DNA of 64,000 nucleotides from Macrocystis pyrifera (lineage: Eukaryota; Sar; Phaeophyceae; Laminariales; Laminariaceae). The stretch lies in the NCBI GenBank assembly GCA_031763025.1, contig JASSKH010000042.1, positions 1,240,001 through 1,304,000 of the forward strand, written 5' to 3'. The notes under the pieces were generated by a model. That model was not told where the DNA came from. It did no database searches and saw only the letters and a program-made list of their open reading frames with translations. The translations under genes and the position numbers were made by a program. Of this stretch, positions 1,165 to 62,566 are shown piece after piece. Positions within the stretch are counted from its first letter, which is position 1. Every line of letters starts with the position of its first letter.

Positions 1165-1358
1165 CGACGCCGCTTCCGGCAAGGTGGGTTTCTACCTTGG
1201 TAAGGAGGCGGTACCTCGACACCGGCTTCAGGCGTTACTGTCGAGGGGGGAGTTCGATCGAGCCCTGGACCTGGCCCGAGCGTACTCCATGGATGAAACC
1301 GACGTGCACGCCGCGCGACTGCTCGCGCTGTTGCGAGAGGGCGGAGAGGCAGTTACTG
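1165..1358 (+). CDS. KNTC1: KNTC1/Rod-like exon 1 (first visible)
   Basis: Contains RGEFDRALDLARAYSMDE, which matches the Rod motif of the form 'KGxFxEAExFAxxFGL' in the central solenoid. The donor is ACT G|gtgaga, leaving phase 1, as exon 2 needs. The start is uncertain: the acceptor may be cacgcag at 1164 or gcaag at 1183. The following intron (1359-2850) holds a C-rich repeat, a GGTCGATC-type minisatellite (1580-1790), a MITE and a GTGCCGGT element. Confidence 0.75.

Positions 1359-62566: not shown

Follow-up and report, generated by a model that had tools for sequence, protein, structure and literature searches.

A long, intron-rich gene spanning a 64-kb stretch of the giant kelp genome very probably encodes Rod (KNTC1)

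Structure of the locus

The window analysed here, a stretch of 64,000 nucleotides, comes from the giant kelp Macrocystis pyrifera, a brown alga, in keeping with the probable alga named as its source by a first-pass annotation made from the letters alone. We consider it very probable that the window holds the central part of a single long, intron-rich, forward-strand Rod (KNTC1) gene. The genome searched contains 537,376,219 bases in 223 contigs; the giant kelp reference genome is described as 537 Mb in 223 contigs (35 scaffolds and 188 contigs) with 50.37% GC (PMC10498591).

Initial exons, chosen by eye from the window minus positions 25001-26000, formed the training set for a small splice-and-codon gene finder, which was applied to the window with an upstream flank of 70 kb and a downstream flank of 20 kb, and its output was then curated. 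The curated model runs from window coordinate -9932 to 70253 (80,185 bases) and comprises 45 exon pieces, with 5 upstream of the window, 34 within it and 6 downstream. We prefer to read the pieces 58002-58055 and 58160-58489 as a single exon, which gives 33 exons in the window and 44 overall. On the + strand the first of these begins at 1165 and the last finishes at 62566, and about 6165 of the 64000 bases in the window are coding (9.6%, with one base, 58001, overcounted). This matches the roughly 33 small + strand exons, the ends and the coding share of about 10% that had been read from the letters. The further claim that one gene occupies the whole window holds in that a single + strand gene spans it, but the gene extends beyond the window on both sides, by about 10 kb upstream and about 6 kb downstream. 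The locus would hold one Rod gene of about 80 kb and about 44 exons, of which one copy was found.

Curation removed ten finder exons, six within the intron with ankyrin relics at 6.7-13.2 kb (6698, 7579, 8229, 9439, 10345 and 13139) and the others at 22305, 23170, 38939 and 55470, as well as every piece upstream of -9932 and one at 78868. Three exon ends and two exon starts were set by hand, and the pieces at 58002 and 61442 were added manually. The features within the window are as follows.

1165..1358, +, first exon in the window; ARM_KNTC1_1st starts here (gene model, Pfam)
2857..3032, +, exon (gene model)
4543..5361, +, largest exon (819 nt), with acidic and Gly/Ala inserts (gene model)
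5362..14023, intron, the longest at 8662 nt, outside the protein; both strands carry decayed ankyrin-like units
14024..14321, +, exon (gene model)
14976..15160, +, exon (gene model, PDB search)
16154..16254, +, exon, end set by hand from the finder's 16231 (gene model, PDB search)
17658..17808, +, exon in ARM_KNTC1_2nd, the sole unspliced PF24516 match in the genome, start set by hand from the finder's 17677
18931..19070, +, exon in ARM_KNTC1_2nd (gene model, Pfam)
19822..19873, +, short exon, less certain alone (gene model)
21557..21915, +, exon with a Gly/Ala-rich insert (gene model)
24526..24616, +, exon (gene model)
26103..26281, +, acidic and Ala-rich exon (gene model)
27291..27459, +, exon (gene model)
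27995..28071, +, short exon, less certain (gene model)
29267..29458, +, exon (gene model)
30409..30490, +, short exon, less certain (gene model)
31859..31977, +, exon (gene model)
34056..34206, +, exon (gene model)
35811..35943, +, exon (gene model)
37497..37672, +, exon, acceptor uncertain (gene model)
37971..38092, +, exon in ARM_KNTC1_3rd (gene model, Pfam, PDB, unspliced genome search)
42668..42811, +, exon in ARM_KNTC1_3rd (gene model, Pfam, PDB, unspliced genome search)
43313..43499, +, exon in ARM_KNTC1_3rd, start set by hand from the finder's 43295 (Pfam, PDB, unspliced search)
44597..44746, +, exon in ARM_KNTC1_3rd (gene model, Pfam)
47205..47387, +, exon with an acidic insert (gene model)
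49347..49452, +, exon; Rod_C-like region starts here (gene model, profile search)
52385..52574, +, exon, end set by hand from the finder's 52592 (gene model, profile search)
53851..53938, +, exon (gene model)
54897..55156, +, exon with an acidic/Gly insert, end set by hand from the finder's 55194 (gene model)
58002..58489, +, exon whose reading frame breaks within a C-rich tract, between about 58019 and 58173 (finder: 58160-58489 only)
60366..60559, +, exon (gene model)
61442..61602, +, exon added by hand (absent from the finder path), whose reading frame breaks within a G-rich tract after about 61546
62416..62566, +, last exon in the window; the gene runs on over the next 6 kb (gene model)
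2210, 3526, 24306, 30976, 32799, 34825, 48989, 50114, 54167, copies of a MITE-like element with core GGACCAAATATTGTTAGTAAAAATAGG

The median exon is 176 nt long and the median intron about 1.39 kb, calculated over the 45 pieces with the false gap of 104 nt counted in. Coding GC at codon positions 1, 2 and 3 is 0.703, 0.522 and 0.755, against 0.512 in the introns. Donors are GT at 43 of 44 sites and acceptors AG at 43 of 44 in the curated model, the exceptions being the false end at 58055 and a counting offset at 58002, which is preceded by CAG; GT and AG sites, open frames and phase are all imposed by the gene finder and so provide no independent test. The model, which is incomplete, translates to about 2,870 amino acids. 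It is open at both ends, as the exon with the start codon and the final coding exon are both unfixed; scanning for motifs of the former, N-terminal exon gave nothing usable.

The longest intron, 5362-14023, contains 103 inverted-repeat pairs 30 nt or more in length, 30 direct-repeat families and ten TALxLA motifs (seven on the + strand and three on the - strand), a motif with no occurrence elsewhere in the window. Six translated pieces were scanned: the Pfam Ank cut-off is exceeded by one, on the minus strand, two match below it and three have no match. Decayed ankyrin relics in alternating, inverted orientation are odd contents for a housekeeping gene. The introns also carry dispersed repeats. 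The MITE-like element is present in nine copies at up to 3 mismatches to its core, with 0 expected, and by eye its copies have inverted termini of the CCCCCGTAATAG type. A second repeat, with core GCATTGTAGGGATGCGAGGGTCTATGG, occurs on both strands in 17 copies from 5437 to 61853 (up to 3 mismatches, 0 expected), often, by eye, near long poly-C or poly-G runs. Long micro- and minisatellite arrays (TCA, ATATGTATG, a 24-mer and CTA) lie in introns at 25107-25924, 38160-38564, 40169-40451 and 48465-48970. Outside the window, the upstream neighbour gene has an exon with a SAP domain at -44225 to -44090 (34.6 bits, cut-off 23.9), and the downstream neighbour gene has a VPS13_N-like exon at 86541 to 86648 (E 5.7e-5; 21.5 bits, below the cut-off of 80).

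Domain matches and colinearity with human KNTC1

The spliced protein was searched against Pfam as two halves at E values up to 1. Three domains specific to KNTC1 exceed their cut-offs: ARM_KNTC1_1st (PF24520) with 43.3 bits (cut-off 27.3, E 5.1e-11), ARM_KNTC1_2nd (PF24516) with 61.8 bits (cut-off 27.4, E 9.2e-17) and ARM_KNTC1_3rd (PF24515) with 96.9 bits (cut-off 26.4, E 1.6e-27). Apart from KNTC1_N, which is treated below, the remaining three Pfam matches are to unrelated families at E values of at least 0.033. Searches of the PDB gave human KNTC1 (7qpg_R) as the best match for both halves, in the first at residues 914-1101 with E 1.5e-7 (next match 0.43) and in the second at residues 302-448 with E 2e-6 (next match 0.012). 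The second half has 14 further PDB matches at E values of at least 0.012, mostly on a Gly-rich stretch, and human KNTC1 is the sole PDB match under E 0.01 for either half. These results bear out the initial description of a KNTC1/Rod-like gene.

Searches of the unspliced genome with PF24515 and PF24516, at E values up to 10, are tests independent of the gene finder. PF24515 gave three matches, all inside the window, at 37968-38093, 42663-42851 and 43314-43469; these cover profile positions 10-51, 50-114 and 99-150 and are colinear with the profile. Their E values are 7.6e-4, the only one over the cut-off, 0.196 and 0.259, and among 14 control genomes one was matched by this profile, below the cut-off. 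The PF24516 search gave one weak match, at window positions 17671-17808 (E 4.3).

A propeller-plus-solenoid layout is common to Rod and to NBAS/Sec39, the relative of Rod in the NRZ vesicle-tethering complex. Sec39/Nag has been reported as similar to Rod, and each of the two occurs in a complex with ZW10. We regard a reading of the kelp gene as NBAS/Sec39 as extremely improbable, in view of the three KNTC1-specific domains and of the absence of any match to Nbas_N (PF15492) or Sec39 (PF08314) in either half of the protein at E values up to 1. Across the whole kelp genome Nbas_N found four weak places, the best at E 0.039 and none in the window, and Sec39 found none in this genome, nor any in the control genomes. 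NBAS/Sec39, or no profile match at all, had been named beforehand as the outcome that would count against Rod; the searches returned the three KNTC1 domains and neither of the NBAS/Sec39 profiles.

The exon translations were compared with the human KNTC1 reference sequence, which had been checked against the deposited PDB chain. Alignment of the whole chain scores 960.5, compared with 423 for permuted exon orders (sd 33, maximum 529.5, n=60) and 405 for shuffled residues (sd 25, maximum 454, n=40). Among the best positions of the 45 pieces the longest increasing run has 22 members, against a mean of 10.6 and a maximum of 17 in 20,000 permutations; for the window pieces only it is 17 of 34, with a permuted maximum of 15. 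At the level of single exons, shuffle p values of up to 0.05 were obtained for 9 of the 45 pieces, and three of these nine, the exons at 1165, 47205 and 67192, lie off the diagonal. The rank correlation between order and position is 0.47 for the nine pieces (p 0.21) and 0.39 for all 45 (p 0.008). Single exons are too divergent to be placed alone; taken together, the order signal is clear. The proposal that the exons follow the order of Rod holds for the chain, with an alignment score far above the permuted and shuffled controls.

These data also bear on the reading of the model as a patchwork, in which some exons would come from other genes or from chance open frames threaded onto a Rod core. 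This we judge unlikely. Ten doubtful finder exons did have to be dropped during curation, and the short exons at 19822, 27995, 30409 and 64096 have no homology support individually; against this, the order test over all 45 pieces is far outside its controls, and the finder yields only 23 exons (2892 bp) on the reverse strand versus 44 exons (6995 bp) on the forward strand, a partial control given that its training exons are all forward.

We are therefore highly confident that the protein encoded at this locus is a genuine Rod (KNTC1) ortholog, because its sequence has the three KNTC1-specific domains in order and its exon order follows human KNTC1.

Frame breaks and the ends of the gene

Phase, which the finder enforces, agrees at 42 of the 44 joins of the curated 45-piece model. 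Both failures concern exons that are open in one frame at the start and in another at the end (58002-58489 and 61442-61602), and when one break is allowed inside each of the two, the flanking phases agree. The first-pass annotation had stated that phases match at all but two junctions; its count stands, but the problems sit inside two exons and not at junctions. The two frame breaks are probably indels in homopolymers of the long-read assembly.

Two frame breaks among 33 window exons might also be expected of a decaying Rod pseudogene, in which both would be real and the protein would not be made. We consider this very unlikely, as the assembly is built from long reads and both breaks sit in its C- or G-rich tracts, and the other exons are open, retain the difference in GC between third codon positions and introns and have fitting splice sites, with the caveat that openness and GT-AG are imposed by the finder. 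Furthermore, no second copy was matched by PF24515 or PF24516 in the unspliced whole-genome search. We regard Rod as single-copy in the kelp genome only provisionally, because a search exon by exon is insensitive.

The two ends of the gene match profiles less well than its middle. The profile Rod_C (PF10493), which the first-pass annotation had proposed as a check, stays under its cut-off of 24 bits, with a top score of 23.6 bits that was obtained only after inserts were removed by hand. The untrimmed region with X at the frame breaks scores 10.9 bits, two of its sub-pieces and an untrimmed piece of 116 amino acids have no match to Rod_C, and the 1519-residue second half of the spliced protein has none at E values up to 1. 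Rod_C also gave 0 matches in the unspliced whole-genome search, which we judge insensitive because PF24515 did match. The short exons, long introns and two frame breaks show how such a gene can escape an unspliced search with Rod_C. At the other end, KNTC1_N (PF24506) scores 24.8 bits against a cut-off of 27.1, on one stretch of 34 residues. KNTC1 was not found in the PDB with the C-terminal pieces alone, nor with the N-terminal 443 amino acids alone.

Aligned separately to human KNTC1, the N-terminal part scores 155.5 against 69 for shuffled residues (sd 16, maximum 134), and the C-terminal part 175 against 95 (sd 15, maximum 135). When exon order is permuted, the best of 200 orders of the N-terminal part equals the real score of 155.5; this tie may be the true order redrawn, since only 720 orders exist for six pieces. 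The C-terminal part scores 175 in its real order, less than the 199.5 reached by the highest-scoring of 200 permutations. As the PDB and profile results for single pieces are weak, the assignment of both ends rests on the continuity of the gene and on the order test.

RZZ partners, proposed role and comparison with known systems

The annotation had also called for a check for Zw10 and Zwilch in the same genome, which gave a clear answer for the first and a weak candidate for the second. The profile ZW10_C matches contig C214 with 67 bits (cut-off 25.8, E 6e-16); a weaker ZW10_C place lies about 4.7 kb upstream of this match, in profile order, and an exon further downstream matches ZW10_C2 with 27.7 bits (cut-off 27). 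The profile Zw10_N has no match in the kelp genome, nor in the control genomes. On these profile matches, ZW10 is present in the kelp genome. For Zwilch, the profile finds one weak place genome-wide (E 0.446, 16.5 bits), in an open frame of 614 amino acids. Scans of this candidate with hmmscan gave 16.5 and 15.9 bits, and 18.3 bits on an excerpt with stretches left out, against a cut-off of 25; another excerpt gave no match to Zwilch, and two excerpts found no Zwilch chain in the PDB. Aligned to human Zwilch, the candidate scores 163.5, which none of 500 local shuffles reach (mean 95, maximum 157.5), though some shuffle outscores the N-terminal half when it is taken alone, and likewise the C-terminal half. 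From these comparisons a Zwilch gene in kelp is possible. The profile RINT1_TIP1 finds three weak places, with E values from 1.4 to 2.8; on contig C209 two of these lie near each other and follow the profile order, which hints at RINT1 in this genome.

Rod (KNTC1) is a scaffold that helps chromosomes to wait for correct attachment before cell division. The kelp protein is predicted to consist of a beta-propeller at the N-terminus and, after it, a long helical solenoid, and its acidic and Gly/Ala inserts probably form disordered loops that separate segments of the solenoid. By homology, it would join ZW10 and Zwilch as an RZZ complex at unattached kinetochores, where the complex would scaffold checkpoint proteins and motors until microtubules attach; such a scaffold is the most likely role of the protein. 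In animals the kinetochore corona is described as built mainly from RZZ, which together with Spindly recruits dynein and serves the checkpoint (PMC10711656, PMC12429063, PMC5818066).

Reports on kinetochore evolution place this gene in context. In the account of van Hooff et al. (2017), the kinetochore of LECA comprised 49 of 70 proteins, and CenpF, Spindly and three CenpO/P/Q/R/U subunits are probably later additions; Rod, which is not among the proteins named there as later, is presumably counted in the LECA set (PMC5579357). The same study reports very similar profiles for Rod and Zwilch (r = 0.859; PMC5579357). In the brown alga Ectocarpus the checkpoint gene MadBub has been reported, in duplicated form (PMC5204127). 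For genome editing, a CRISPR platform covering four brown algae has been described (PMC12853178). Wu et al. (2023) report that RZZ orthologs occur in species of the Stramenopiles/Alveolate lineage, where CENP-E has a cysteine at position -4 and Spindly is apparently absent, and ask whether this lineage forms a corona-like structure (PMC10630089). A Rod gene in kelp is thus to be expected, because RZZ orthologs have already been reported for its lineage (PMC10630089). The claim that the locus would be informative for kinetochore evolution therefore stands in that it provides a divergent algal Rod, but it is less surprising than was supposed. Our search of the open-access literature, where print coverage is incomplete, returned no paper on KNTC1 in a brown alga and none on Zwilch in Ectocarpus.

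The locus provides a concrete, nearly complete Rod gene model in a multicellular stramenopile, far from animals, and the question of a corona-like structure raised by Wu et al. (2023) could be tested in kelp, which has Rod, ZW10 and a possible Zwilch. We offer one suggestion that we think doubtful: with Rod, ZW10 and possibly Zwilch, kelp could build a corona-like RZZ layer free of Spindly, perhaps anchored by farnesylated CENP-E and with the inserts modulating polymerisation. If true, this Spindly-free layer would be a second route to a fibrous corona.

The NBAS/Sec39 protein of NRZ has a reported likeness to Rod and a ZW10 partner in common with it, but its profiles miss the kelp protein. 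Human KNTC1 (7qpg_R) has the three ARM domains in the same order, and its sequence gives the order that the kelp exons follow. The two proteins are very divergent, with 2,209 amino acids in human KNTC1 against about 2,870 in the incomplete kelp model. As the first-pass annotation had described, acidic and Gly/Ala inserts are located in several exons of the kelp gene; unlike human KNTC1, the kelp protein carries these inserts, and its Rod_C region and N-terminal propeller lie under the Pfam cut-offs.
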